DNA from: Ruegeria sp. AD91A
GTDB lineage: Bacteria; Pseudomonadota; Alphaproteobacteria; Rhodobacterales; Rhodobacteraceae
Direction: 5' to 3'
Length of the DNA: 64,000 nucleotides
Assembly: GCF_003443535.1 (NCBI RefSeq)
Contig: NZ_CP031947.1
Location: 496,001-560,000, forward strand
Of the stretch, positions 47,503 to 62,999 are shown piece by piece (positions within the stretch are counted from its first letter, which is position 1; every line of letters begins with the position of its first letter). Made by a program: the position numbers and the translations under genes. Under the pieces are notes generated by a model, which saw nothing but the letters and a program-made list of their open reading frames with translations, ran no database searches and was not told where the DNA came from.

Positions 47503-48369
47503 CTAGCTCAAAAGCCCCTTCAGATAGGTGCCGTACGTGGACTTGGCGAACAGGCGCGCGCGCGTATCAAGAGCCTCGTCGTCGATCCAGCCATTCGCCC
47601 AGGCAATTTCATCCAGGCTGCCGGTCTGCATACCCTGACGTTCCGTGATCGTGCGCACGAAGTTTCCCGCATCCAGCAAAGACCCGTGTGTGCCGGTATC
47701 CAGCCAGGCAAAACCGCGCCCCATGGTCTGCACATCCAGCAAACCTTCGTCCAGATACATCTCCAACAGCGACGTGATTTCCAGCTCGCCGCGATCTGAC
47801 GGTTTGACCTCAAGCGCCCGGGCCGGAGCATCGCCATCCAGAAAATAAAGACCCGTCACCGCGTAGTTCGACGGAGGTACCTTTGGTTTTTCGACGATCG
47901 CGCGGGCTTTGTTTCCTTCGAAATCCACAACGCCGTAGCGTTCGGGATCAGCGACCCGATACGCAAAAACCGTACCGCCGCGCTCCAGTTGATCCGCCTC
48001 GAGCAGCAGGTCCGGAAGGCCATGTCCGAAGAAAATGTTATCACCCAGAATCAATGCAGACGGGGCACCATCCAGAAAATCCTCGGCCAGTGTATAAGCC
48101 TGCGCCAGACCATCAGGAGACGGTTGCACAATCCAGGTCAAGGACAACCCGTATTGACTGCCATCCCCCAACAGGCGCTGAAACTGATCCTGATCCTGAG
48201 GGGTGGTGATGATCGCGATTTCGCGGATCTGCGACAGCATCAAAACACTCAGAGGGTAAAAGATCATCGGCTTGTCGTAGATCGGCAGCAACTGCTTCGA
48301 TATCGCCATGGTAATCGGGTAAAGCCGGGTTCCGGACCCACCGGCAAGAATAATGCCTTTGCGCTGCAT
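47503..48369 (-). CDS. rfbA: Glucose-1-phosphate thymidylyltransferase
   Basis: A 288-residue enzyme that makes dTDP-glucose, the first step to dTDP-L-rhamnose. GIILAGGSGTRLYPITMAISKQ is the nucleotide-binding start (signature GGSGTRLYP), with ILGDNIFFGHGL, VEKPKVPPSNYAVTGLYFLD, and AWLDTGTHGSLLDAG following. The ATG at 48369 has AAAGGACA about six bases upstream, better than the frame's first start at 48384. Last gene in the rfbC-B-D-A order. Confidence 0.95.
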   Translation of the reverse strand: MQRKGIILAGGSGTRLYPITMAISKQLLPIYDKPMIFYPLSVLMLSQIREIAIITTPQDQDQFQRLLGDGSQYGLSLTWIVQPSPDGLAQAYTLAEDFLDGAPSALILGDNIFFGHGLPDLLLEADQLERGGTVFAYRVADPERYGVVDFEGNKARAIVEKPKVPPSNYAVTGLYFLDGDAPARALEVKPSDRGELEITSLLEMYLDEGLLDVQTMGRGFAWLDTGTHGSLLDAGNFVRTITERQGMQTGSLDEIAWANGWIDDEALDTRARLFAKSTYGTYLKGLLS

Positions 48370-48387
48370 AATCTGTCCTTTCAAGGT

Positions 48388-49251
48388 TCAGCTGGTCGCT
48401 GACTTCAACTCGCTCAATATCTCGGCCAGTCCAGCTTTCCAGTCGGGCCTGTGAATTCCGAACACATTTTCAAGCCGCGAACAATCCATACGTGAGTTCA
48501 GCGGCCTGGGCGCAGGCGTTGGGTACGCTTCGGTTGGAATATCTTCGATCTGAACCGACAAGCCGGATTGAGAAACAATTTCACGGGCGAAATCCGCCCA
48601 GCTGGCATCGGGTGCACCGGAATAGTGGAACACGCCGCCTTTGGCTTCAGGGCCGGCCTTGGCCATTTCAAGCAAGGTGTCGGCAATGTCGGCAGCAGGT
48701 GTTGGCCCACCGATCTGATCTGCGACAATGGTCAGCTTGTCACGGGTCTCTGCCAGTCGGATAATGGTCTTTACAAAGTTCTTTCCGTGGGCCGAAAAAA
48801 CCCAGCTTGTGCGCAAAATGGCGTGCTGTCCACCAGCCGCTGCAATCTGGCGTTCGCCGTCCAGTTTGGTTTGACCGTAGGCTCCCAACGGCCCGGTCGG
48901 ATTATCGGTGCTCCAAGGGGTCGTTCCAGAACCGTCAAAAACGTAGTCTGTGGAAATATGCAGAAAGGGCAGGTCTCGGGCCGCGGCGGCACGCGCCATT
49001 GCTCCGGGTGAATCTCCGTTGATCCGCTTCGCCAGCTCTCTTTCTTCTTCGGCCTGGTCTACGGCAGTATAGGCTGCTGCATTGATGATCACGTCCGCAT
49101 CCGTGTTCCGGATGGCTTCTGCACATTGCGTCGGATCCGACAAATCCGCCGCGGCGCGATCCAGGGATTCAACCAAGACATCATGTGCCTGTCCGCGACG
49201 TCGCAACTCGGTCGCCACCTGCCCCCCGCGGCCGAATACCAGCGCCTTCAT
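48388..49251 (-). CDS. rfbD: dTDP-4-dehydrorhamnose reductase
   Basis: A 287-residue short-chain dehydrogenase that performs the last step to dTDP-L-rhamnose. The N-terminal [18 protein letters not shown] is the NAD(P) site. [14 protein letters not shown] and [17 protein letters not shown] are RfbD signatures, and the catalytic pair is in YGQTKLDGE. The start overlaps rfbB by four bases; the stop is 18 bases from the rfbA start. An intact member of the complete pathway encoded here. Confidence 0.95.
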
Positions 49252-50288
49252 TTGGCAACACCCAGTCGCTCACCCACACCGCTGCGGGCCTGCAGGGCGT
49301 TTAACCACGCGCTGTTGTCCAGATACCACTGGACTGTCTGTTCCAGACCAGTTTCAGGCGTATAGGAAGGGCGCCAGTTCAGTTCCGTGCGAATCCGGGT
49401 CGGGTCAATGGCATAGCGCTGATCGTGACCGGGGCGATCAGCGACGAACGTGATCAAATCCGCATAGGGAGTTTCACCCGGCTTGAGGCGATCCAGAATT
49501 GCGCATAGCATTCTGACAAGATCAAGATTGGTCATCTCATTCTCGCCACCGATGTTGTAGCTGCGGCCCAGTTCGCCCTTTTCGAGAACCAGCAACAGGG
49601 CTTCGGCATGGTCGTCGACGTGCAGCCAGTCGCGAATATTGTCACCATTCCCGTAAATCGGGATCGGTTTGCCTGCCAGCGCGCTGAGGATGACCACGGG
49701 GATCAGCTTTTCCGGGAACTGGTAAGGGCCGTAATTATTGGAGCAATTGGTAAGAACCACTGGCAGGCCGTATGTTTCACGCCACGCCCGCACGAGATGA
49801 TCCGATCCCGCTTTCGAGGCCGAATAAGGTGAGTTCGGCTGGTATGGGCTGTCTTCGGTGAAAAACCCAGTTTCACCCAAGGATCCAAAGACTTCATCGG
49901 TTGAAATATGATGAAACCGGAAATGCTCGGGTCGGCCTGCACCCACCCAATAGGTGCGTGCGGCTTCCAACAATACATAAGTACCGGTCAGGTTCGTGTC
50001 GATGAACGCTGCCGGGCCATCGATCGAACGGTCAACATGGCTTTCAGCGGCCAGATGCATGATCGCGTCGGGCTGGTGCGTGTTCAGAATTGCCGACATC
50101 GCGGCCGCATCCCGGATATCCGCATGTTCAAAAACGTATTCCGGCACATCTGCGACAGCGGCAACATTGTCCAGACAGGCCGCGTAGGTCAGGGCATCGA
50201 CATTGACGACCGAATGCCCATCGGCAATCGCGCGACGGATAACGGCAGAGCCGATAAAGCCCGCCCCGCCCGTAACCAGAATTTTCAT
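49248..50288 (-). CDS. rfbB: dTDP-glucose 4,6-dehydratase
   Basis: A 346-residue extended short-chain dehydrogenase. [19 protein letters not shown] binds [23 protein letters not shown] and the [17 protein letters not shown] block are RfbB signatures, with [14 protein letters not shown] holding the catalytic Tyr and Lys. [14 protein letters not shown] and [12 protein letters not shown] are also conserved. It overlaps both neighbours by four bases, so rfbC-rfbB-rfbD are translationally coupled. Confidence 0.96.
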
Positions 50289-50854
50289 TGTGTGCCCTCG
50301 AATACGAAAGGTGATTCAATTTCGCGCAGAAGTGGTGCGTTCCGATCTTTCTCGGACAGCTGGGGTTCTGAATTGTTCTGTGGCCATTTAATGCCGATAT
50401 CGGGATCGTCCCAACAAACCGCACCTTCAGTTTCCGGCGCGTAGGTATCAGAACACTTGTAGACGATCTCGGTCTCCGGCTCCAACGTCACAAACCCATG
50501 CGCGAATCCCACCGGAACCAACAGCATCCGCCCATTCTCGAAACTCAGTTCTTCACCGACCCAGTGACCATAGGTGGGCGAGCCTTTGCGGATATCGACC
50601 GCGACATCAAACAGCCGCCCACGACCGCAGCGCACCAGTTTAGCCTGCGCCTTTGGCGGAGCTTGAAAATGCAGTCCGCGTACCGTGTTCACCGTGCTCG
50701 AAAGGGAATGATTGTCCTGAACGAATTGCGTATGAATCCCTTGTGCCGCAAAGCCGTCGGCATTGTAGGTTTCCTCAAAGAACCCGCGATGATCGCCAAA
50801 ACGCTTCGGGGTAATCAGTTTCACTTCCGGAATGGAAAGCGCCAATATTTCCAT
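50285..50854 (-). CDS. rfbC: dTDP-4-dehydrorhamnose 3,5-epimerase
   Basis: A 189-residue cupin-fold epimerase. Conserved blocks are [38 protein letters not shown] (catalytic His in RGLHFQ), [16 protein letters not shown], and [14 protein letters not shown]. First gene of the rhamnose operon; the promoter must lie in the gap to its right. No strong ribosome-binding site is obvious at the ATG. Confidence 0.95.
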
Positions 50855-51232: not shown

Positions 51233-53281
51233 TCAGGTCGCTTCGAGATTACCCAATAAGATAGACGTCATGTCCGCGTTGATAACCCCATCCAAGGCCA
51301 CAGCATCGATACCCGTTTGATAGGCTACATCGTCCTTGGTTATTCCGGAAAGGTCCGCGTTTTCATCCAGAAATACCCATTCAGGGTCATGGGCCGTGGG
51401 CTGTCCGACGGCGGCTTGCAAAATTGCAAGAGCATCCAGGGCGTTCACGGTGCCATCCCTGTTGACGTCTGCGGCTATCAGGTTTTCCGCGGTCGCTGGA
51501 CCCCATGTCGGATCAAGACCAACCGAGATACGCAACACTTGCAAAGCGTCCAGCGCGTCAATCTTCCCGCTTGCCGTGGAATAGTGTTTGGTGATGTCAA
51601 GCACTCCGGGAAAGGTGCCATCCGGCAATTCCAGGTCAAACCGCCCCTGATCACCTGCGGTAGCGGATACCGTACCCCCGCCGTCTGGCGTGAACCGGAT
51701 TTCCGCGTCCGTTAGCCCCGGATTTGCGGCCTCGCTGTCCACCGTAATCTGCCCGACCAATCCATCAGAGCTGCCCGGTGTCTGCCCGCCCAAGTCCCCG
51801 AAATCTACCGGGATGTGATCCGGTCCGGCGAAGCCTGCGCCAAAGATATCCGTGCTTGTCAAAGCGCCGCCCGAGGCGGATTGGACCTGCACGGTCTCGC
51901 CACGATATTCGATCTGAGCCCCGTTTGCCGTGCTGGTAAAGGTCAGTTGCTGAGGCGACCGCAACAGAAGGTAGTCGAACATATCCAGTCGATCCAGGCC
52001 CGCCTGAAAATCGGTTATTGTGGTCAGACCACTACCGGACTGCATCACGAAGATGTCGGCCCCTGCACCACCCGACATCGTCGTCGCACCCTTCCCCGCG
52101 ATGAGAATGTCGTCTCCGGCGCCTCCCAGTAGGGTCGTGTCCAGAATACTGCCGCTCAGGATATCGTCCGACGCACTCCCGTTCACCGTACCGAACCCTT
52201 TTCTTACCGCACCCAGATCATCAACCGGAACAGTCAGGACAGTCACTCCGGCATCCTGTTGCGATGTTACGAAAATTTGCAACTCATCACCCACATGCGC
52301 AACGCTGATCGATTCGACATTCTGCAACCCACTCGCCACCGTGTCCGCGAAACTGTCCAGATGAACCAGTTGACCTTCGAGTGTCAGAGTGAACAGAGAC
52401 AGGCCATCATCGCCGCCGCCTGCAACCACAAAGACCCGCCCGTTCACGTCTATGACCGCCAGATCCTGAACCGATTCAAACCGCGTATGAAGCGTATCAA
52501 GCACATGGTCCGTCGTCTTCAAACTTTCATCGCTGTTCAATTGAAGAACACTGAGAGAGTTGCTGCCGGACCCCGCCACCACAACCCAGGATTTACCGTA
52601 TGCCTCTACGGTCTCGACATCCGTTGGGGTTGAAACACCAAGGGTTCCGAGTGCCGAATCATTGTTGATCTCGGTTAGCGTGCCGGTGCCGGAGTCGATG
52701 CGGTACGTCGCGACAGAGTTTGTTGCCGCGTCACTTGAGATCAGAAAATGTTCCGAACCCGACCGCAATGTCTGCATGGCATCCGCTGTGCCGGCAATCA
52801 AACCCGCAAGACTGAGCGTCCCGTTCGCGTTCACATGATAGGTTCCGATATTGTCGGTATCCTCATGCGCCATCGCAAGGACATCCGAAGACCCAAGTGA
52901 AAACTGTACGATGGCCGAGATATCTCCGCCTCCGTTGAGCGTTCCTGTTTCTTTCAGGCTACCGATCGTTCCGTCCGCGTTCACGTCATACCCGACCAGG
53001 CCCACGGCAGTGTTGATATCGAGCGCAATCTGCTCGGTTCCCGCCAGCGTTATCGGCGTGGCACTGCGCCCCACCTGGAAGGTGATCGAACCGCTGTAAT
53101 ATTCTGTGTCAACCAGCTGCGGCAGGGCACCTTCGGCCAACCGCCAGACTGCGACGCCGCCACCCGGACCGGTCACCGTGTAGAGATACGTATTCCCGTT
53201 AAGCGTTTTTAAAGCCGTATCGCCGATACCTGAATCGAGCGCCGTGCTCCCCGTTGCCACTACACTTTCGAACTGAAGCAT
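51233..53281 (-). CDS. Secreted beta-propeller protein with RTX repeats and a C-terminal dockerin-type domain
   Basis: A 682-residue protein, using the ATG at 53281 with GAGGTG nine bases upstream; ATG 53290 and GTG 53305 are alternatives. Residues 5-360 carry repeated propeller-like strands (YLYTVTGPGGGVAVW, SWVVVAGSGSNSLSVL, GRVFVVAGGGDDGLSLF). Residues about 365-415 hold RTX-type calcium turns (LLGGAGDDILIAGKG, MSGGAGADIFVM). Near 510-560 is a carboxypeptidase-regulatory-like strand block, then a duplicated dockerin motif: GKIDALDALQVLRISVGL and ADVNRDGTVNALDALAILQ. There is no Sec signal, which fits export by the neighbouring type I system. The partner is possibly the divergent adhesin. 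Confidence 0.82.
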   Translation of the reverse strand: MLQFESVVATGSTALDSGIGDTALKTLNGNTYLYTVTGPGGGVAVWRLAEGALPQLVDTEYYSGSITFQVGRSATPITLAGTEQIALDINTAVGLVGYDVNADGTIGSLKETGTLNGGGDISAIVQFSLGSSDVLAMAHEDTDNIGTYHVNANGTLSLAGLIAGTADAMQTLRSGSEHFLISSDAATNSVATYRIDSGTGTLTEINNDSALGTLGVSTPTDVETVEAYGKSWVVVAGSGSNSLSVLQLNSDESLKTTDHVLDTLHTRFESVQDLAVIDVNGRVFVVAGGGDDGLSLFTLTLEGQLVHLDSFADTVASGLQNVESISVAHVGDELQIFVTSQQDAGVTVLTVPVDDLGAVRKGFGTVNGSASDDILSGSILDTTLLGGAGDDILIAGKGATTMSGGAGADIFVMQSGSGLTTITDFQAGLDRLDMFDYLLLRSPQQLTFTSTANGAQIEYRGETVQVQSASGGALTSTDIFGAGFAGPDHIPVDFGDLGGQTPGSSDGLVGQITVDSEAANPGLTDAEIRFTPDGGGTVSATAGDQGRFDLELPDGTFPGVLDITKHYSTASGKIDALDALQVLRISVGLDPTWGPATAENLIAADVNRDGTVNALDALAILQAAVGQPTAHDPEWVFLDENADLSGITKDDVAYQTGIDAVALDGVINADMTSILLGNLEAT

Positions 53282-53441
53282 CACAGCCATCACCTCACAC
53301 GCCACCCCTGGCAGTTACGGCAAGATGACCAGATGAGCAGACCGAAACCAAAGCAGAATTGTGGTGAAAACGAGAAGTTCGGTTTCAGTTTAACTCAATT
53401 TTTTCAGGTCCGATCGCAACGGCAACAAATGGGAAAGACAG

Positions 53442-56400
53442 ATGAGCAAAACGCCAAACAGCACATCCTTTCCTGTTGCGATGATCGCGGACACCACATG
53501 CGAGGGCAAGATGACCATAGCACCTGAGGCCAACAATCGTCCGGCGGCTGACTCAACGGACGGAGATCGCAAATCTCAAGTTCAACAATGGATCAATGGA
53601 AAGCTTGGTCGTTGGGCGGGTCGAGGCGCGGCTGGCGGCCTTATGTCCACATTGATGGCTTTGCCCGCGTTGTCGCAAGCAACCGTCGAGGAGCTGTACG
53701 CCTTCCAGTTCGCAGAAACAATTCCGGGTGTGCGATCCGCCAAACTGCTGAAAAACGGCGATGTTCTTCTGAAAATGGCTGACGGTCGGACGATGATCGT
53801 GGCGGCGGAAAACGTACAGGTTTTGGACAGCGGCGCAATCATGATCGCAGAAGAGGCGGTTGCCGAAATCGCCCAGTTCAGCGCAGCTGAAGCCGGAGCG
53901 GCAGCTGGTGGAATCAGCGGTACAGGGGCTGCACTGGGTGGCCTTGGTCTGGCCGGTGCGGCTGCCGCCGCAGGCGGAGGTGGCGGTGGCGGCGATTCCT
54001 CTGAACCCGTCGCGCCAAAGCCTGAACCCCAACCCCAACCAGAACCGAGCTACACCAGCCTGAACCTGGCCGAACTTCAGGCAACGGCATTGAACAGCGC
54101 CATTACCAAAGCCGCCGCTCCTGAAGGAACATCGACAGTTGAGGTCACGATAGGTTCGCTTGTCAAAAGCGTAACGCCCAGCGATGACGGCAGTTGGAGC
54201 GTTTCTCTCACTGCTGCCGAAGCAAATGCGCTTCCGCAAGGCGTCTCTACGGTGACAGTCAGACATCTGGACGATTCAGGCACGGAACTGTCAAGCGAAT
54301 CCGTTCAGTTCGATATTGATACAATTCCACCAACCCTGTCGATCACCGGGTTTTCCGATGGCGTTGTTTTGAATTCGATCGAACAGGCAACAGATCTGAC
54401 AGTCACCGGAACGACCGATGCAGAAGACGGACAGACCGTCACCGTCTCAATGAATGGGCAAGACTATTGGGGCACGGTATCCAACGGACAATGGAGCGTC
54501 ACTGTCCCGGCGGCAGACCTCTCAGCCCTACCTGATGGCTCGGCGATTGACGTAACCGCTGATGTTGCCGACGCGGCGGGAAATTCCGCACCACAGGCTA
54601 GCGGTAGCTTTGATACTGATTTTACTGCACCAACTGTTTCTCTGGATCCCGTGGCTGGCGGCTCGATAGAACTGATCGACGTAGCCGGCGACCTGGCCTT
54701 GACCGGTTCCACCACGGCAGAGGACGGTCAGACCATCATCGTTACGTTCAACGGACAAGTGCATACAGGCACCGCTTCTGGCGGAAGCTGGAGTGTAACG
54801 ATCCCCAATTCCGATCTGGGCAGTCTTTCCACCGGAGTGCCCGCATCGATTCTGGTTGCCGTCGAAGATGTGTCGGGCAATCCGGCAGTGCCGCTTCTTG
54901 TATCGGTTCCCGTGGACCTGGCCGGCCCTTCCATTTCGATATCACCGCTTCCTGTTGGTTCCGTACTGAACGCAACCGAAGCCGGATCCGACTTGACCAT
55001 CAGCGGGTTGACGTCAAATGTTGAGGATGGTCAGCAAGTTACCGTAACTCTCGATGGTCAAACATATTCCGGAACAGTATCCGGCGGGGCCTGGAACGTG
55101 ACTGTACCAACTGGGGATCTGGCGTCTCTGCCGGATGGGGGCAACTTCTCTGTTACAGCGGATGTCGACGACGCCAGCGGCGTGACGGCACCGCAGGCTG
55201 AAGTGACACTTTCCAAGGATGTGACCGCGCCGACACTCAGCATCGACAGTTTCTCGGACGGAGCTGTCATGAACGCATCCGAGCGGACTACAGATCTTTC
55301 CATCTCGGGAAGCACGACAGCAGAAGACGGTCAAATCGTAACTGTCAGCTTGAACGGGCAGTCCTATACTGCAACGGTTTCTGGAGGCAGCTGGAGCGCG
55401 ACTGTACCTGCTTCGGATCTGACAGGTCTTTCTGACGCGGCGTCCATCACCGTAACAGCGGATGTCTCGGACGCTGCCGGGAATCCAGCTCCACAAGCCA
55501 ACAACAGCTTTACCACCGATTTCACGCCACCGACGATTGGAATTTCAACCGTATCCGACGGGGCTGTCATGAACGCCGTTGAACAAGGAACCGACCTGAC
55601 GGTGTCAGGAACTTCCGATGCGCCGGACGGAACAGTTGTTACCGTCGAGATCACGCGCACTGACGGCACTACGGACGTTACCGGAACGGCAACGGTAACC
55701 GGGGGCATCTGGACCTATACGGCAACCGTGACAGATTTGTCTGCCCTGCAAGACAACGAGACTTACAATATCAATGCGTCGATCTCGGACGCAGCGGGAA
55801 ACAACAATCAAACCACAACAAGCTTTGCCACTGACTTCACGGCACCTTCAATAACCATAAACAGTCTGCCTGTGGGTGCCGTGTTGGACGTGACCGAGAG
55901 GGGCGTGGATCTTGCAATCTCGGGCACAACCACGGGTGAAGATGGCCAGACCGTTTCGGTTACATTCGGTGGGCAAACCTATACAGGCGTTGCATCAAAT
56001 GGGTCTTGGGCAGTTACCGTTCCCACCAGTGATCTTGGACTGCTCTCTGACGGAACGACCTATTCCATTTCCGCCACTGTTGACGATCTTGCCGGAAACA
56101 GCTCCGCAGCCGCGAACAGCTCACTCTCCACAGACTTTCGCCCCTTGTTGACGTTGAACGATATCGGGGTCAACAATTCGATTGCTCTGGACGATGCTCA
56201 AACCTCCGGTATTACCCTCAGCGGTTCATCCGCCGGACTGACAAACGGCCAGTCGGTGGATGTCACATTGAACGGAACTTCGGTCGGATCAGCAACGGTG
56301 ACCGCAGACGGATCCTGGACATTGTCTGTCGCAGCGTCTGACTTTTCGGCTGTAGAGGCAGGTGAAGACCTTGTTTTTTCGGCGCAGGCGACAGTTGCGG

Positions 56401-57350
56401 GTGGGCCAGATCCACTGCCAGTCTCCGAGCAAGCCGTTGCGCACGAACCCGCCGCTTACGTGATCTCTGAAGTCGGGCGCACAGGATCTACGGTGACGTT
56501 CGCAATCTACGCCGAAGCCGAACGCGATATCTCCAGCGGTTTGGCTTTGACGGCAGAACTCGAATTTGACTCTTCAGTTGCCACATTCAACAGCGCGTCG
56601 GTTTCGCAAAACAACGCCTTCGATTTGTTTTTGGCCAGCCAGGGCGCCGGGGACACGATGAATTTAGCCGGCGCCGCGACAACCTTTACAGATCTCTCTC
56701 AACCGCTTGTCACCTTCACGATGACAATCCAGGACGTCAGCCAGCCTATTGAGCTGACAATCAAAACGTCTGATGGCGGACCATCGACAGTTCAGTTTGG
56801 CACCAATAGTGATGACACACTCGTCGCCGCGAATACGGACACCATCACTCGCGGCGGTGATGGCGACGATACCATTGATGTTTCTGCGGCAGGACGAGAC
56901 ATCGTCGTCTTCGAAGCAGACCCGACCAGCAATGGTACAGACACTGTGACTGGCTTCACGATTGGCCCGGCTGCGGATATAACCGACGCACTGATGTTCC
57001 ACGGGCTGGACACCAATACACTTCGCGGTGATGGCACCGGATTCGAATTGCTTTCCGCTGGCGACACGTTGGGCACAAACACCGGATTTGTCGGTCTTGA
57101 CACAGTACTCACCGACCTCAACCCCAGCACAATCGAAGCTGCTGTCGAGGGGTTCGCCGGAGCCATGGCAGGCGATGAGCTTTACGTGATGGCAACCGAC
57201 GGAACAAACAGTGTTTTGGTCAAGGTAGATTTCCAGGCGCCGGACGATGCCAGCGTTGAAACCGTGGCCACGTTCCAAGACCTGAGCGATCTGAGCGGCC
57301 TGACCGCAGATAATATCCTGCACACCGACCCAACTGGGGCAACGGCTTAA
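53442..57350 (+). CDS. Large Ig-repeat surface adhesin with cohesin-like domain (BapA/type I secretion type)
   Basis: A 1302-residue extracellular protein. Residues 75-150 resemble the BapA prefix domain (VRSAKLLKNGDVLLKMADG), followed by an Ala/Gly-rich stretch (151-188) and a Pro-Glu hinge (PKPEPQPQPEP). From about 204 to 1000 there are eight Ig-like repeats of about 100 residues, each with a DGQTVTVSLNGQ-type strand and SGGSWSVTVPASDL. Residues about 1004-1112 read like a cohesin fold (TVTFAIYAEAERDI, LTAELEFDSSVATFNSASV). The C-terminus has one RTX-like turn (RGGDGDDTIDV) and an acidic secretion-type end. GGGAAAG precedes the ATG. Heads the T1SS operon. Confidence 0.83.
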   Translation: MSKTPNSTSFPVAMIADTTCEGKMTIAPEANNRPAADSTDGDRKSQVQQWINGKLGRWAGRGAAGGLMSTLMALPALSQATVEELYAFQFAETIPGVRSAKLLKNGDVLLKMADGRTMIVAAENVQVLDSGAIMIAEEAVAEIAQFSAAEAGAAAGGISGTGAALGGLGLAGAAAAAGGGGGGGDSSEPVAPKPEPQPQPEPSYTSLNLAELQATALNSAITKAAAPEGTSTVEVTIGSLVKSVTPSDDGSWSVSLTAAEANALPQGVSTVTVRHLDDSGTELSSESVQFDIDTIPPTLSITGFSDGVVLNSIEQATDLTVTGTTDAEDGQTVTVSMNGQDYWGTVSNGQWSVTVPAADLSALPDGSAIDVTADVADAAGNSAPQASGSFDTDFTAPTVSLDPVAGGSIELIDVAGDLALTGSTTAEDGQTIIVTFNGQVHTGTASGGSWSVTIPNSDLGSLSTGVPASILVAVEDVSGNPAVPLLVSVPVDLAGPSISISPLPVGSVLNATEAGSDLTISGLTSNVEDGQQVTVTLDGQTYSGTVSGGAWNVTVPTGDLASLPDGGNFSVTADVDDASGVTAPQAEVTLSKDVTAPTLSIDSFSDGAVMNASERTTDLSISGSTTAEDGQIVTVSLNGQSYTATVSGGSWSATVPASDLTGLSDAASITVTADVSDAAGNPAPQANNSFTTDFTPPTIGISTVSDGAVMNAVEQGTDLTVSGTSDAPDGTVVTVEITRTDGTTDVTGTATVTGGIWTYTATVTDLSALQDNETYNINASISDAAGNNNQTTTSFATDFTAPSITINSLPVGAVLDVTERGVDLAISGTTTGEDGQTVSVTFGGQTYTGVASNGSWAVTVPTSDLGLLSDGTTYSISATVDDLAGNSSAAANSSLSTDFRPLLTLNDIGVNNSIALDDAQTSGITLSGSSAGLTNGQSVDVTLNGTSVGSATVTADGSWTLSVAASDFSAVEAGEDLVFSAQATVAGGPDPLPVSEQAVAHEPAAYVISEVGRTGSTVTFAIYAEAERDISSGLALTAELEFDSSVATFNSASVSQNNAFDLFLASQGAGDTMNLAGAATTFTDLSQPLVTFTMTIQDVSQPIELTIKTSDGGPSTVQFGTNSDDTLVAANTDTITRGGDGDDTIDVSAAGRDIVVFEADPTSNGTDTVTGFTIGPAADITDALMFHGLDTNTLRGDGTGFELLSAGDTLGTNTGFVGLDTVLTDLNPSTIEAAVEGFAGAMAGDELYVMATDGTNSVLVKVDFQAPDDASVETVATFQDLSDLSGLTADNILHTDPTGATA

Positions 57351-57397
57351 CCCGACCCGGCGTACGAACGGACGGAATTCAACATCAAGAGGTGGTT

Positions 57398-58231
57398 ATG
57401 GCACAGAATGGCTTAACTCCAGTCAGTATTCGACGACATGGTCATCGGTTCTGGAAGAGGTTTACCTCATTCGATTTCGCGCGAAATATGGTAGATTGCC
57501 CCGTTGTTGAAGCCGAAATTCTTCAGGCCGCAGCCACTTTTCCAATCATTTTTCGGAAATCTGAATACGGGTATTACCCAATGGCTGTTTTATCCATGCA
57601 ACCAGACCCGCCTACACCATTTGTATCGGCGCAGGGCAATTGGCTGGCGACTTACGTCCCATCCGCTTTGCGCTGCGCTCCGTTCCGGCCCCAACTGATT
57701 AAACCGGACGGCGACGGCAGCGACGAGTTGCTTGTCGACGAAACGTCCGGGCTCATCACTGACAATCCGGATGACGAAGTATTCTTCGACAAATCAGGGC
57801 AACTTTCGCCAGAACTGAAAAAAGTCGCAGCTTTCTTTCGCGCTCTGAAAGAGTCGATGAGATACACAACTCATCTATGTCGTGTTCTTGCTGACATGGG
57901 ATTGTTTAGTCCGCTTACCTCCTTCCAGGGGGTTGAGGTCCCATGCGGGCATTATGGCGTCAAGCAGAACACTCTGGAGAAAATTCCCCGGGCGCACTTG
58001 TCACTGCTTACGTCGAATGGGGGCTTGCGACTGATTCACGCTCATCAGATTTCGCTGACCCATTGTATTTGGCTGGCACATGCACATACCCGCGCGCATC
58101 GAGTAACTGATGGTTCTCTGACACAAAAGACCACCGGTGTTTCAGGGTTTTTGGACGCGTTGGTTGCGGCGCAACAGAAAGAAGAAGCTATGGACCGTTG
58201 CAGGCAGGAGGGTCTCCATGCGTTCCAGTAA
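57398..58231 (+). CDS. SapC-family protein
   Basis: A 277-residue protein of the SapC family (named from an S-layer-associated gene in Campylobacter). Typical features are TFPIIFRKSEYGYYPMAVLS, GNWLATYVPSALRCAPF, and the acidic DETSGLITDNPDDEVFFDKSG stretch. The ATG at 57398 follows AAGAGG. No signal peptide or membrane segment is visible, so it is probably cytoplasmic. It lies between the adhesin and TolC genes, overlapping the latter by 14 bases, which ties it to the secretion operon. Its biochemical role is unknown. Confidence 0.8.
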   Translation: MAQNGLTPVSIRRHGHRFWKRFTSFDFARNMVDCPVVEAEILQAAATFPIIFRKSEYGYYPMAVLSMQPDPPTPFVSAQGNWLATYVPSALRCAPFRPQLIKPDGDGSDELLVDETSGLITDNPDDEVFFDKSGQLSPELKKVAAFFRALKESMRYTTHLCRVLADMGLFSPLTSFQGVEVPCGHYGVKQNTLEKIPRAHLSLLTSNGGLRLIHAHQISLTHCIWLAHAHTRAHRVTDGSLTQKTTGVSGFLDALVAAQQKEEAMDRCRQEGLHAFQ

Positions 58232-59561
58232 GGCAAATCTATCTTGGGTTGCGTTCGCTGTGTTTGCGATACTGCTGTCCGCCTGCACACCCCCTCCTGA
58301 TTTGTCTTCTGTGGCAGTATCCTTTGCACCCGGGACCACCGGTGCCGGTGCAACAAAGCCATCGGCAGAACTTAGTCAAAGCGCGTTCGGGCAACGCGTG
58401 CGCCAGGCGGTAGAGACAAGCCCGACACTGGCACAAAGCGATACCAGAATGGATGTCGCATCAGCCAATCAAGATGCAGCTGAAGGCGCATTTCTTCCGC
58501 AGATATCGTTGGGGATAAATGCGCGGTCTGAACGGGTTGAATCGGATATTGCAGATGTTTCACCTTATCTGAGAATCTCGCAATTGGTTTATGACGGTGG
58601 GGCCGCATCAGGGGATCTGACGGCAGCGCGAGCACGCGTTATGGAAAGCCGGGGTGATCAGATTCAAGCGGCATCGGCCACGGCGCTGGCGGCCGTTGAG
58701 ACCTATGTACTTGTCCTTGATCAAAGGAAGATACTCCGTATCGCAGCCGACAATGTCTCGGTCCATGAAGAACTGGTACGTCAAATTTCAGACCGTACAG
58801 CGGGTGGGGCGGGTTCAAATGCAGATGTTCTGACCGCTCAGTCCAGAATGGCAGATGCGCGCACAAGACTGGCGGATGCACGAGCACGAACTGATCGGGC
58901 CGAAGCGCGATTCCGCGAAGTGTTCGGGAATTTTCCCGGCTTATTACCCCCACCCGTGCCCGCTCCTCCGCTGAATAGAAGTGACGCCCAGATTGTGATG
59001 AACAGCCCTCAGATACGCAGGGCTGACGCTGGCTTGCTGGCGGCCAAAGCCGAGTGGTCAGCAGCTCAGGCACGGCGTAAACCGAACGTTCGGGTCGCAG
59101 CATTTGCCAACCAGGATGACACTCGGGATGCAAATTTCGGCGTGGATCTTTCATTCAACTACGAGTTGGATAGTACTGGTCAACGCCGTGCCGCCATCGC
59201 AGCAGCTGAAGCGGAAGTGAAAGAAGCGGAATTTGCACGAGAGCAATTGGTTCGCGAAATCATGCGGGAACTGGGCTTTATTCGATCCGATCAAAAAGCA
59301 GGAGCGGAAAGACTGCGTGCGGCCCGTATTGCGGCGACCGCCAATGCCGACAGTGTAACAGCATCCCGCGCGCAGTTCTCAATTGGGCGTCGCAGCATGA
59401 TAGAAATCCTGGACGCTCAGCGCGATTACGTAAATGCGCAAGAACGCCTGATCCTGGCCGAGCAGAGCTTTTTTCTGACCAACTACGCAGCTCTGAGCCT
59501 CACCGGAGACATTTTGGATCTGCTCGGCATATCGCCCGGCAATTGGAGCGAGGAGAAATGA
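58218..59561 (+). CDS. TolC-family outer-membrane lipoprotein of a type I secretion system
   Basis: A 447-residue outer-membrane channel. The ATG at 58218 has GGAGGG six bases upstream and starts a lipoprotein signal with lipobox LLSAC (Cys23); a longer frame from 58137 would destroy it. Two long helical repeats follow (RVRQAVETSPTLAQSDTRMD; INARSERVESDIADVSPYLR; and later NSPQIRRADAGLLAAKAEW), the arrangement of TolC. It forms the exit duct for the ABC transporter and HlyD adaptor encoded next. Its stop overlaps the ABC start by four bases. Confidence 0.9.
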   Translation: MRSSKANLSWVAFAVFAILLSACTPPPDLSSVAVSFAPGTTGAGATKPSAELSQSAFGQRVRQAVETSPTLAQSDTRMDVASANQDAAEGAFLPQISLGINARSERVESDIADVSPYLRISQLVYDGGAASGDLTAARARVMESRGDQIQAASATALAAVETYVLVLDQRKILRIAADNVSVHEELVRQISDRTAGGAGSNADVLTAQSRMADARTRLADARARTDRAEARFREVFGNFPGLLPPPVPAPPLNRSDAQIVMNSPQIRRADAGLLAAKAEWSAAQARRKPNVRVAAFANQDDTRDANFGVDLSFNYELDSTGQRRAAIAAAEAEVKEAEFAREQLVREIMRELGFIRSDQKAGAERLRAARIAATANADSVTASRAQFSIGRRSMIEILDAQRDYVNAQERLILAEQSFFLTNYAALSLTGDILDLLGISPGNWSEEK

Positions 59562-61705
59562 GCACGTTGAAATCAATGCAAGACCGCCCACGTTTGACAA
59601 GCTTCGAAGCCTGCCTTCTGAATATTGCCGCTACACTTGAACGCCCCCTGACCCTCGCAACAATACAGGCGGCACAGACAGGCGCAGACGGGGATCTGAC
59701 AATTCGTGACATCGTCGCCGTAGCGCAAAACACTGGTTTACAGGCGGGATATGGCGAGCGGCACATTACGAAATTTGACGAGACGTTGGCTCCAGCCTTG
59801 TTGCTGATGGTCGAAAACAAGGCTGTTGTGTATCATGGCCGGGCAAAAAACGGGGCCTTGCTGGTCTTTGACCCGGATCTTGGTGAAGGAATCGGTGAAG
59901 TCTCGGAAGAACAGTTGACTGAAACCTACACCGGTTACGCAGTCTTGTTCCGCCGAAATTATACAGATGAATTGGACGCTGGTAACGCGCCTTGCCGCGG
60001 TCATTGGTTTTGCGCGGCACTATCCGCCAATCGATGGACTTACATTCAGGTCGCGCTCGCTGCGGCGCTGGCAAACCTTCTCGGCTTATCGACGTCAATT
60101 TTCATTATGGTCGTCTATGACCGTGTGTTGCCCAATGAGGCAACCGAATCGCTCATTGCCTTGACGGCAGGCGTGGCTCTGGCGCTTCTTTTTGACTTCG
60201 CGCTAAAATTGCTGCGGGCAGCGTTTATCGACAAGGCCGGGCAAAAAGCCGACTTGCTCATGGGTCGGCGAATTTTCGACCAAGTTCTGAATATCCAGAT
60301 GAAGTCGCGCTCGGGTTCTACTGGCGCTATGACCAGTACCATTCGTGAGTTCGAGACCCTGCGCGAGTTCTTCACGTCCGCAACGCTTGTTGCTGTCGTT
60401 GATCTGCCGTTCATCGGGTTGTTCATATTTGTGATTTATCTGGTCGGCGGGCAACTGGCATTGGTCCCGGCTCTGGCAGTGCCTGTGGTTCTGCTGACGG
60501 GTTTGGCGGTGCAGCCGATCCTGTCTCGCATGGCGGAAAAAAACCTGGCTGACGGGCAATCTAAACAATCAGTACTCGTGGAAGCTGTCTCGGGTCTCGA
60601 AACGATAAAGACGACCGCTGCCGGTCGACAAATGCGTTCTCGGTGGGAGCAGGCGATAGAACGGCAATCCTCGCATGGCGCTCAGAGCCGGGCCGTTACA
60701 CAATTTGCTCTCAACCTGACCGGTTTTACACAACAATCCGCTCAGGTGCTGATCGTTTTTTATGGTGTTTTTCTGATCACAGACGGTCAGACCAGCATGG
60801 GTGCATTGGTTGCCTCGGTGATGCTGACAGGGCGGGCACTGGCACCTTTGGGGCAGCTGGCTCAGACGGTGACAAGGCTTAACCAAGCCCGAAGTGCATA
60901 CCGAAACCTCAACACTCTGATGATGGCGGAAAGCGAACGCCCACAAGGCCGAACATGGGTCAACCGGCCCGATTTCAAAGGAGAGATCGCCTTCAACAAC
61001 GTGTATTTTTCCTACCCTGACCGAGGGGAAGATACCCTGCAAGGCGTTTCATTCACGATCAAACCGGGTGAAAAAGTGGCGATCCTGGGTCAGATAGGCT
61101 GTGGGAAAAGCACCATCGCACGCCTGATGCTGGGATTGTACGCGCCGCGAGTTGGATCTGTTACGTTCGACGGCCTTGATATCCGCCAGATCGATCCTGG
61201 CGATCTGCGCCGCAACATCGGATCTGTCCTACAGGACATATGGCTCTTTTCCGGGTCCGTCCGGGACAATATCGCAAGTGGCGCAATCCGGCCAAAAGAT
61301 CAGGAACTGATCGAAGCGGGCCGCACCGCCGGGGTTGAAGATTTCGTGGCCACCCATCCAGGCGGTTACGATCTTCAACTCGCGGAACGTGGCGAAGGGC
61401 TCTCTGGCGGACAACGGCAGGCTATTGCCCTGGCAAGAGCACTCATCGGCCGCCCGCCGGTTCTCCTGCTTGATGAACCAACAAGCGCGATGGATGTCAA
61501 AACCGAAGCCCAGGTTATCCAGCGTCTGAAAAAAAGCTCTGCGGACTCAACCATGGTTGTCATAACGCACAGAACCAGCCTGTTGGAGCTTGTTGACAGA
61601 GTCATAATCCTTGAAAACGGGAAAATCGCAGCAGATGGTCCCAAGAGCCTGCTGACACAACATGTTCGTCCGACAGGGAGGCACCTGAATGTCGCAGCAT
61701 CCTGA
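59558..61705 (+). CDS. Type I secretion ABC transporter (permease-ATPase) with non-peptidase C39-like domain
   Basis: A 715-residue inner-membrane exporter. Residues 1-135 form a C39-like domain in which the catalytic Cys position reads Ser (LTSFEACL), so it should bind but not cut the substrate, as in HlyB and LapB. About 150-430 is the six-helix membrane domain. The ATPase has Walker A GQIGCGKSTIARL, signature LSGGQRQAIALARAL and Walker B VLLLDEPTSAMD, then the His switch in VITHRT. AGGAG precedes the ATG at 59558. Its likely cargoes are the two large proteins encoded at the start of the island. Confidence 0.93.
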   Translation: MSTLKSMQDRPRLTSFEACLLNIAATLERPLTLATIQAAQTGADGDLTIRDIVAVAQNTGLQAGYGERHITKFDETLAPALLLMVENKAVVYHGRAKNGALLVFDPDLGEGIGEVSEEQLTETYTGYAVLFRRNYTDELDAGNAPCRGHWFCAALSANRWTYIQVALAAALANLLGLSTSIFIMVVYDRVLPNEATESLIALTAGVALALLFDFALKLLRAAFIDKAGQKADLLMGRRIFDQVLNIQMKSRSGSTGAMTSTIREFETLREFFTSATLVAVVDLPFIGLFIFVIYLVGGQLALVPALAVPVVLLTGLAVQPILSRMAEKNLADGQSKQSVLVEAVSGLETIKTTAAGRQMRSRWEQAIERQSSHGAQSRAVTQFALNLTGFTQQSAQVLIVFYGVFLITDGQTSMGALVASVMLTGRALAPLGQLAQTVTRLNQARSAYRNLNTLMMAESERPQGRTWVNRPDFKGEIAFNNVYFSYPDRGEDTLQGVSFTIKPGEKVAILGQIGCGKSTIARLMLGLYAPRVGSVTFDGLDIRQIDPGDLRRNIGSVLQDIWLFSGSVRDNIASGAIRPKDQELIEAGRTAGVEDFVATHPGGYDLQLAERGEGLSGGQRQAIALARALIGRPPVLLLDEPTSAMDVKTEAQVIQRLKKSSADSTMVVITHRTSLLELVDRVIILENGKIAADGPKSLLTQHVRPTGRHLNVAAS

Positions 61706-62999
61706 CCTGGCCGCACTGGCTAGAGAGATGCAGGGGCGCTCTCCTGTCCGGAGTTCGTTGCTGCTGCTGGTGATCCTGTTCTGCCTGATCGCCGCCGGAT
61801 TGTGGGCGTATCTGACTGAACTGGACGATGTCACGCGTGTGGACGGTCGAATCGTGCCTTCAGGGGACATTCAGTTGATCGAAGCCACCGAGCCCGGCGT
61901 ATTGCAGTCGTTGCATGTTCGCGAAGGTCAATTGGTCGACAAAGGTGCATTGCTGATGGAACTCGACACGACCCAGATTGACAGTCAGCTCAGTCAGGAA
62001 CAACAACGCGCATTCGGACTTATGGCCCGGGTCCAACGTCTTCGGTCCGAAATAGATGGGACACAACTGGAGTTCGATGTCCAACTGATCAATGGCGCGC
62101 CTACCCTCGTACAATCTGAAACTGCACTGCACCAAGGGCGACGGGCTGAATTGGAGGCAGAAATCGCCATCCTGGAGCGTCAGCGTCAACAAAAGCAAAG
62201 AGAATTTGAGGAAGGCCTGGTCGATCAAGTGACGGCGGACGAAACCCTACTGGTCCTGGCCGAAGAGAGGGCGATCATGGCTCCGCTGGTCGAGCGTCAA
62301 ATGGAGCCTGCAACAACATTACTTGCGTTGCGGCGGAGTGAAGCCGAATGGCGTGGTCGCAAGGTTCGGGCAGAAGCTGTAACCAACAGGTTGCAAACGG
62401 GCTTGGACGAAATCGACGATCGGATTCAGGCGGTGCGAAGCCGGTTTCGCAGCGCAGCGCTGACGGATCTGGCGCTTGCCACTGCCGAGCTGGCTGCTTT
62501 GCAACCCGCCTTGCCCGCTTTGCGCGACCGGGCCTCAAGAGCGCAGGTTCGGTCTCCGGTACGCGGCATTGTAAACCGAATTCATCGCTCAACTATCGGC
62601 GGCCTTGCCCGTAGCGGAGAGGACCTTGTTGAAATCGTGCCGCTGGACGACACATTGCTTGTCGAAGCTTATGTAAAGCCTGAGGACATCGCGTTTTTGC
62701 ACGCCGGTCAGCCTGTGAAAGTCAAAATCACGGCTTATGATTTTGCACGATACGGGGCACTGGATGGTGAAATCATTCGCATCGGCGCAGACACGATCAC
62801 ACGATCAGAGCGTAATGATGAAGATGTCTTTGTTGTGGAAATCCGAACCAATAACACCATGCTTGATGGCAATGGCATAGCAGTCGAAATCATACCAGGC
62901 ATGATCGCTGAAGTGGACATCCTGTCTGGCCGCAAATCAGTGCTGGATTACATTCTGCAACCGGTTGTGAAGATAAAAGATCAGGCGTTGCGCGAATAA
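61689..62999 (+). CDS. HlyD-family membrane-fusion protein
   Basis: A 436-residue adaptor. Residues 18-40 are one membrane helix (SSLLLLVILFCLIAAGLW). A biotinyl-lipoyl strand follows (GRIVPSGDIQLIEATEPGV, SLHVREGQLVDKGALLMELD), then a coiled-coil hairpin rich in Gln, Glu and Arg (about 120-290), and the second lipoyl half VRSPVRGIVNRIH. The C-terminal beta-barrel includes VEAYVKPEDIAFLHAGQPVKVK. It overlaps the ABC gene by 17 bases and bridges it to TolC. Confidence 0.92.
   Translation: MSQHPDLAALAREMQGRSPVRSSLLLLVILFCLIAAGLWAYLTELDDVTRVDGRIVPSGDIQLIEATEPGVLQSLHVREGQLVDKGALLMELDTTQIDSQLSQEQQRAFGLMARVQRLRSEIDGTQLEFDVQLINGAPTLVQSETALHQGRRAELEAEIAILERQRQQKQREFEEGLVDQVTADETLLVLAEERAIMAPLVERQMEPATTLLALRRSEAEWRGRKVRAEAVTNRLQTGLDEIDDRIQAVRSRFRSAALTDLALATAELAALQPALPALRDRASRAQVRSPVRGIVNRIHRSTIGGLARSGEDLVEIVPLDDTLLVEAYVKPEDIAFLHAGQPVKVKITAYDFARYGALDGEIIRIGADTITRSERNDEDVFVVEIRTNNTMLDGNGIAVEIIPGMIAEVDILSGRKSVLDYILQPVVKIKDQALRE

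Follow-up and report, generated by a model that had tools for sequence, protein, structure and literature searches.

The question raised by this locus is whether a type I secreted adhesin can serve as the docking site of a dockerin-tagged protein encoded next to it. The window, i.e. the whole stretch of 64,000 nucleotides analysed here (Ruegeria sp. AD91A, genome of 4.4 Mb; contig NZ_CP031947.1, positions 496,001 to 560,000 of the forward strand), carries two divergent genes, one encoding a long adhesin (the scaffold), the other a protein with a beta-propeller and a C-terminal dockerin (the client). A preliminary description had placed this divergent pair beside TolC/ABC/HlyD genes, as borne out by the calling of both open reading frames (ORFs) over the 64 kb and by matches of the export genes to PF02321, TIGR03375 and TIGR01843. 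From the gene layout, the dockerin family, the predicted cohesin fold of an adhesin module, the co-occurrence of module and dockerin tail, the absence of the scaffold from two strains that apparently lost it, and recognition positions that match between the two halves of the dockerin, we propose that the locus probably encodes a non-cellulosomal cohesin-dockerin system built on the type I secreted adhesin, the client docking on its module. The earlier reading as a whole, in which the two proteins would bind each other, is partly supported.

The dockerin tail and the candidate cohesin module

The dockerin is recognised by its sequence. Dockerin_1 (PF00404) matches client residues 579-628 with 39.1 bits for a cut-off of 22.9 (E 8e-10), and the two PF00404 matches found in the genome of the window at E ≤ 1 both lie in the client ORF. 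The duplicated calcium motif previously described stands as a Pfam dockerin with one intact half: the second repeat DVNRDGTVNALD is the sole full calcium loop, whereas the first repeat YSTASGKIDALD is devoid of acidic ligands at loop positions 1, 3 and 5. The same degenerate first loop occurs in the four Ruegeria relatives examined and in the genome G073; several other genera retain D1 and D5, and the first loop of several relatives is intact or partly so. In alignments, the dockerin belongs to a larger unit (residues 514-690) conserved among relatives, of which the AlphaFold2 model has a pLDDT (predicted local distance difference test) of 87.3 and a pTM (predicted template-modelling score) of 0.82. 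The small beta domain of these tails is CarboxypepD_reg-like in 8 of 21, and their C-terminal strand mostly ends in ILLGN or similar. Dockerin_1 matches 18 of the 21 isolated tails at E ≤ 0.01, while the 21-tail profile finds four PDB sequences at E 0.001-0.004, all dockerins, with no stretch significant singly. The conserved last strand (ILLGN and variants, within 51236-51766) may be a type I secretion signal joined to the dockerin.

The module is recognised by its predicted fold. The structure of adhesin residues 998-1121, predicted with AlphaFold from a three-row alignment (window, R. atlantica and R. arenilitoris), comprises nine strands (pLDDT 78.5; pTM 0.76). When this model was compared by Foldseek with 350,542 PDB chains, ranks 1-7 were held by cohesin entries (best 2jh2, E 1.3e-5, TM 0.71), the first non-cohesin match being the Als3 adhesin at rank 8 (E 5e-4), and 23 of the 50 rows shown bore the title of a cohesin or cohesin-dockerin complex. 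The cohesin-like segment noticed by eye near residues 1004-1112 is thus real by Foldseek, with 998-1121 as its best bounds, though PF00963 is silent on it.

A comparison of profiles points in the same direction. As references we used the 17 sequences translating as cohesins among the 27 read of 30 Clostridia loci recognised by PF00963. Against these, the module profile scored 26.5 (7 rows) or 25.5 (11 rows), values reached by none of 200 column shuffles of each profile (maxima 17.3 and 20.9, respectively), and the control scores were 13.2 for the reversed module, 15.5 for the immunoglobulin-like (Ig-like) repeats of the adhesins (five repeats), 13.4 for the RTX C-terminus (three rows) and 10.5 for the beta domain of the dockerin tail. 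Since the aligned core spans only 42 columns and the hhalign probability is only 20-26%, which also counts among the objections gathered below, the comparison backs up the fold result rather than standing in for it. Together, these data support a predicted cohesin fold for residues 998-1121. We give almost no credence to the idea of a generic beta-sandwich that resembles cohesins and lies by chance beside a dockerin gene: many beta-sandwich adhesins, such as Als3, pilins and collagen adhesins, do figure further down among the Foldseek matches, whereas cohesins occupy the first seven ranks, the module score exceeds those of all shuffles and of three other domains, and module and tail co-occur in genomes, as follows.

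Distribution of the two domains and fate of the locus in relatives

The client protein was partly matched in 137 of 198 genomes of the family at E ≤ 1e-10, most of the listed matches falling in the propeller-RTX part and some in the RTX part only. The dockerin tail itself is rare, occurring in 13 of 394 family genomes (threshold E ≤ 1e-8), and the module rarer still, with 5 of 394, including that of the window; these five all belong to the 13 tail genomes (Fisher 1.7e-8). The association persists without the genome of the window (5e-7), and also without the latter, G073 and G037, the last two having seeded both profiles (6e-4). G073 and G037 (Rhabdonatronobacter sediminivivens) were detected with the window module alone, G315 (E 1.8e-30) and G354 (Sediminimonas qiaohouensis; E 1.5e-9) with the three-row profile. 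With an 11-row profile, built with all five, these genomes fall below 1e-36 and the next matches come at 0.003 and 0.008. As to whether one partner is regularly found alone, the answer differs for the two: no module without a dockerin tail was found among the five module genomes of the 394, whereas tails without a module are common (8 of 13).

The weaker module matches were set aside. Those at 0.003 (G263) and 0.008 (G022) are, as named by eye, a YceI-like and a polyketide-synthase-like ORF; those in G155 (an unrelated protein of 689 residues) and G081 (an RTX-like protein of 2998 residues) were absent from both profile searches; G037 gave a second, weak match at E 0.026 and G236 one at E 0.28, neither of which was retained; and 11 other genomes at E 0.0018-0.1 with the three-row profile were counted as noise without individual inspection.

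We also scanned 19 genomes reached via dockerin loci and found the module in seven, one of which (G413, R. sediminivivens) repeats G037. The six added genomes, with module E values of 1e-10 to 1e-52, are R. atlantica, R. arenilitoris, Rhodobacteraceae bacterium WFHF2C18, Roseovarius marisflavi, a Pararhodobacter metagenome-assembled genome (MAG) and CSSed162cmA_28. The scan was empty in two Ruegeria strains, Roseinatronobacter thiooxidans and two other CSSed MAGs, as well as in the seven genomes outside Rhodobacteraceae with related dockerin stretches. Altogether, the module occurs in 11 of at most 23 tail-bearing Rhodobacteraceae genomes (13 plus 12, minus two repeats). Since the six added genomes were selected by their dockerin, the co-occurrence rests on the 394-genome sample.

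Module and dockerin are also neighbours. In 7 of the 11 module genomes, the distance from the module to a dockerin gene is no more than about 10 kb, namely in the window, G073, R. atlantica, R. arenilitoris, G315 (where dockerin genes stand at both sides of the scaffold block), S. qiaohouensis and WFHF2C18; in the other four, no dockerin gene was found in the stretches examined near the module. The back-to-back arrangement is kept in G073, R. atlantica, R. arenilitoris and G315.

In two Ruegeria strains, the scaffold block was apparently lost by deletion. In HKCCSA071 (G043), the adhesin ends near residue 540 and is immediately followed by the gene of a response regulator whose counterpart in the window comes after HlyD; neither the SapC-like gene that follows the adhesin in the window nor the module was found in this genome, in which TolC, ABC and HlyD genes were not searched genome-wide. 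With its adhesin broken, no SapC-like gene or module, and the response regulator directly beyond, this strain was dropped as a refutation of the co-occurrence. In 6PALISEP08, the propeller-dockerin gene is itself broken, its 3' half adjoining what remains of HlyD (L124:8536-10531), and the response regulator and rfb-like genes are retained on either side.

Recognition positions, clients and the case for pairing

Provided that these dockerins engage a cohesin with the customary two-fold symmetry, residues in contact with it are expected to agree between the two F-hands, the others drifting. In PMC8063739, positions 10 and 11 of each repeat are given as established cohesin-specificity residues. 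Of the 54 tails listed, 42 proteins were used, the 12 excluded being eight with one F-hand missed by the pattern, three duplicates (L123 and two from L137) and one with ambiguous residues (L108). Taking the first protein per genome group, with Ruegeria and G073 collapsed, left 16 groups. In these, the two F-hands carry the same residue at position 10 in 16 of 16 (6.4 expected) and at position 11 in 9 of 16 (2.0 expected), agreement equalled by none of 5000 shuffles in both cases, and at position 18 in 15 of 16 (40 of 5000 shuffles). Positions 20, 13, 15 and 23 are borderline (120, 326, 392 and 408 of 5000 shuffles, respectively); positions 4, 7, 8, 9, 16 and 19 show no excess in the 16 groups; and several further positions are near-invariant, hence uninformative. 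When all 42 proteins are counted, the F-hands share their residue at position 10 in 38 and at position 11 in 20, with an excess also at positions 15, 18 and 20 (3, 0 and 4 of 5000 shuffles).

The dockerin of the window has A-L at positions 10-11 in both F-hands. The residue at position 10 is A in Ruegeria, Rhabdonatronobacter and Pararhodobacter (with one S in R. atlantica), V in Sediminimonas, Roseovarius marisflavi and WFHF2C18, and S in G224. Control dockerins from 25 loci, picked by text pattern from mixed phyla (one of them, L146, being probably no dockerin), show the excess at positions 10, 11 and 18 and at many other positions. The signature is thus typical of dockerins and not unique to these three positions. 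These sequence comparisons support the view that the client tail bears a putative dockerin recognition signature.

The number of potential clients exceeds that of scaffolds. Every module-bearing genome has one module match (E ≤ 0.1 or 0.01), and R. sediminivivens (G037), with one at E ≤ 0.01, has at least 11 dockerin-tail ORFs, among which five tandem proteins of about 730 residues (L042:7387-18933) with a sixth tail match just past them. Of the 54 tails listed, 14 clients from eight genomes were scanned with Pfam, plus the window protein. VWD domains occur in seven of the 14 (L045, L101, L105, L127, L128, L129 and L133) and RTX repeats in six, while CAP, M23 peptidase, cadherin-like and VWA domains were each found once. 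VWD is a domain of mucin-type assembly. No glycoside hydrolase was found at E ≤ 0.001 in the 14 clients or in the window protein (a propeller), so that the system is not a cellulosome as far as its clients were scanned.

We propose that the system works as follows. The adhesin would be exported by the adjoining TolC/LssB-ABC/HlyD genes, held at the outer membrane through its N-terminal region (a surface-retention role presumed by analogy with BapA/LapA-type adhesins), and extended via its calcium-stabilised Ig-like repeats; it would present one cohesin module, placed directly ahead of the RTX C-terminus. The propeller protein encoded on the opposite strand would be secreted too, and its C-terminal dockerin would dock on the adhesin module in a calcium-dependent manner. 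In relatives, one module would be expected to take several different dockerin-tagged proteins, and the role would be in surface matrix or adhesion rather than in polysaccharide digestion. We lend about as much credence as doubt to a wider proposal, in which Rhodobacteraceae would have a dedicated cell-surface system that builds an extracellular matrix instead of digesting polysaccharide. It would combine a single-socket, membrane-tethered and type I secreted RTX scaffoldin with many type I secreted clients, numbering at least 11 in R. sediminivivens and including propellers as well as VWD, peptidase, CAP and RTX proteins. These would share a dockerin-plus-secretion tail and a recognition code that differs by genus, with A10 in Ruegeria but V10 in Sediminimonas and Roseovarius.

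The following observations weigh against the pairing of client and scaffold. First, the module is silent at the sequence level: of the profile searches proposed in the preliminary description, PF00404 recovered the dockerin (39.1 bits), whereas PF00963 gave nothing at E ≤ 1 on the module in its own genome, nor in the 13 dockerin genomes, and no match for any of seven modules at E ≤ 10. Likewise, neither phmmer nor hmmsearch with the seven-row module profile matched the module to PDB sequences, so a direct sequence proof of the cohesin was dropped; moreover, of the five models that AlphaFold produced for the module, two were of poor quality (56 and 39). Second, Dockerin_1 is found at E ≤ 0.001 in eight of the 14 whole clients scanned (seven above cut-off), and the six misses include clients from module-bearing G315, G354, Roseovarius marisflavi and WFHF2C18, the tails of which are matched by our own tail profiles; with the whole tail, Foldseek returned no PDB entry at E ≤ 0.001 (best E 0.049), a double-dockerin (8x39) standing at rank 20 of its list. 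Third, the two F-hands differ at position 10 in four of the 42 proteins, and the agreement at positions 10 and 11 is based on related sequences; kinship cuts the number of independent changes, yet equally for positions without excess, and alternative picks from G377, G315 or CSSed162cmA_28 would add disagreements to the test with one protein per genome. Fourth, no module was detected in 12 of the 23 tail-bearing genomes nor, within the 394-genome sample, in 8 of 13, including G377, which has four tail matches and 99% completeness. Fifth, HKCCSA071 retains, in the absence of a module, a full-length dockerin gene 81% identical to the window copy, with a dN/dS (ratio of nonsynonymous to synonymous substitution rates) of 0.08 relative to it and a dS near saturation, indicating purifying selection. 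This survival weighs mildly against a strict dependence on the module; perhaps the gene serves some other purpose, or the scaffold was lost recently. Sixth, the supposed export of both proteins via one type I system is put in doubt by a second type I pair, which in R. atlantica and R. arenilitoris converges on the dockerin gene (L125:10552-13600 and L126:10553-13604; not adjoining it in the window), identified as PrtD (TIGR01842, 643 bits) and HlyD (TIGR01843, 383 bits), both above cut-off, in the former and by similarity in the latter, and the dockerin genes observed in G037 lie away from the scaffold locus.

The tails without module point to cohesins that escaped detection or else to a further function of the tail, in secretion. 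As an alternative to the pairing, the tail could mainly be a calcium-folding C-terminal tag for type I secretion with no cohesin partner, the module being an unrelated ligand domain of the adhesin, for instance for sugars. In keeping with such a tag, the dockerin lies at the extreme C-terminus of the complete tails listed, mostly with an ILLGN-like end, 8 of the 13 family tail genomes have no module, the module is found in none of the seven genomes of other families with related dockerin stretches, and the ligand domains of RTX adhesins tend to be distal, according to PMC12153261. We nevertheless consider it unlikely, for it leaves unexplained the confinement of all five module genomes to the 13 tail genomes out of 394, the synteny and loss pattern, and the agreement of the F-hands at cohesin-recognition positions. 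If instead both the cohesin module and the dockerins are genuine and working, their natural partners could be elsewhere (other dockerins or an undetected cohesin), as made plausible by the tails without module and by the dockerin genes of G037 that do not adjoin the scaffold. This appears very improbable in view of the genome of the window, where the one dockerin ORF and the one module match are adjacent and PF00963 finds no other cohesin.

The proposed pairing of client and scaffold can be compared with known systems. The nearest PDB folds to the module (E 1e-5 to 1e-4; about 7-14% identity) are 2jh2, 2w1n and 2vo8, which we take to be non-cellulosomal cohesin modules of secreted glycoside hydrolases from Clostridium perfringens. 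As here, each is a lone cohesin carried by a secreted protein of several modules that belongs to no cellulosome, but their hosts are enzymes of Gram-positive bacteria that are not known to have RTX repeats or to use type I secretion. Non-cellulosomal cohesin and dockerin modules have reportedly been treated by Peer et al. Similarly to the type I systems of cellulosomes (as described in PMC8063739), the locus combines a cohesin scaffold, clients with a C-terminal duplicated F-hand dockerin and recognition positions 10/11; it differs from them in its one cohesin match per genome, its RTX adhesin in place of a scaffoldin and the absence of glycoside hydrolases from the scanned clients. With LapA/BapA-type RTX adhesins it shares the tandem calcium-stabilised Ig repeats, the RTX C-terminus and the adjacent TolC-ABC-HlyD genes, whereas the distal cohesin module, the dockerin partner gene and the SapC-like gene of the cluster set it apart. 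Saccharophagus degradans, another marine Gram-negative with both module types, has two dockerin-like and six distant cohesin-like ORFs, the interaction of which was left untested and, in the accessible part of that report, not linked to type I secretion (PMC2386152). The adhesin BapP, encoded next to type I genes, has a predicted propeller, and its description mentions neither cohesin nor dockerin (PMC12153261). Among the open-access papers listed in our searches, as judged by titles and abstract openings, none dealt with a cohesin-dockerin system tied to type I secretion or present in Rhodobacteraceae.

Genome surveys commonly turn up dockerin genes that have no recognisable cohesin, which raises the question of their purpose. 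Here, predicted fold and gene neighbourhood revealed a candidate cohesin partner, invisible to Pfam, within an adhesin secreted by a type I system, and the pair reduces the orphan-dockerin question to two small domains that are directly testable. If the binding is true, cohesin-dockerin assembly would extend to the surface of marine Alphaproteobacteria, RTX adhesins would have a means to display other proteins, and the new cohesin-dockerin pairs may be orthogonal to the known ones.

Feature coordinates and neighbouring genes

Features of the locus, numbered from the first nucleotide of the window
Feature	Position	Strand	Basis
Client protein: beta-propeller, RTX repeat and dockerin tail, 690 residues	51233..53305	-	ORF, Pfam, homologues
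Beta-propeller region (Lactonase PF10282; limits approximate)	52196..53278	-	Pfam
RTX nonapeptide repeat, residues 386-418	52052..52150	-	Pfam, 19.4 of 23 bits, under cut-off
Dockerin tail, residues 514-690: small beta domain, two F-hands and C-terminal strand motif ILLGN	51236..51766	-	Model, alignments
First dockerin F-hand YSTASGKIDALDALQVLRISVGL, degenerate calcium loop	51515..51583	-	
Second dockerin F-hand DVNRDGTVNALDALAILQAAVGQ, canonical calcium loop	51401..51469	-	
Scaffold adhesin, 1302 residues	53442..57350	+	ORF, Pfam, profile library
N-terminal stretch conserved among adhesins (residues 61-150), presumed to serve surface retention	53622..53891	+	Identity of relatives
Tandem calcium-stabilised Ig-like repeats, Big_13 / Ca_tandemer (limits approximate)	54306..56396	+	NF033510
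Predicted cohesin module, residues 998-1121, nine predicted strands	56433..56804	+	Predicted fold, Foldseek, profile comparison
RTX-like C-terminal region with presumed type I secretion signal	56805..57347	+	Presumed from sequence GGDGDDTIDVS and adjoining type I secretion genes
SapC-like protein	57392..58231	+	PF07277, E 3e-37
TolC-family outer membrane protein (true start probably later)	58137..59561	+	PF02321; under TIGR01844 cut-off
Type I secretion ABC transporter, LssB subfamily	59543..61705	+	TIGR03375, 832 bits, above cut-off
HlyD-family periplasmic adaptor	61689..62999	+	TIGR01843, 354 bits, above cut-off

Judging by its homologues, the client likely starts at the ATG near 53281. Its beta-propeller, already proposed for the minus-strand protein, was recovered as Lactonase PF10282 with 30.1 bits for a cut-off of 21.7. 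In the adhesin, residues 61-150 are 81-91% identical in three Ruegeria relatives, 44% in G073 and 29% in G037; NF033510 matches with 418.8 bits in eight stretches, and the number of Ig-like calcium repeats (Big_13, Ca_tandemer) is 6-8.

The SapC-like gene between the adhesin and TolC genes of the window had escaped the preliminary description. It follows the adhesin in 11 of 11 module-bearing genomes, with an identity of 33-46% in the 10 relatives. On the dockerin side of the locus, positions 47503-50854 carry dTDP-rhamnose-type genes (assigned by eye from the sequence), and such genes flank the locus in the window, G037, G315 and 6PALISEP08, a neighbourhood that suggests a tie between the locus and surface polysaccharide.

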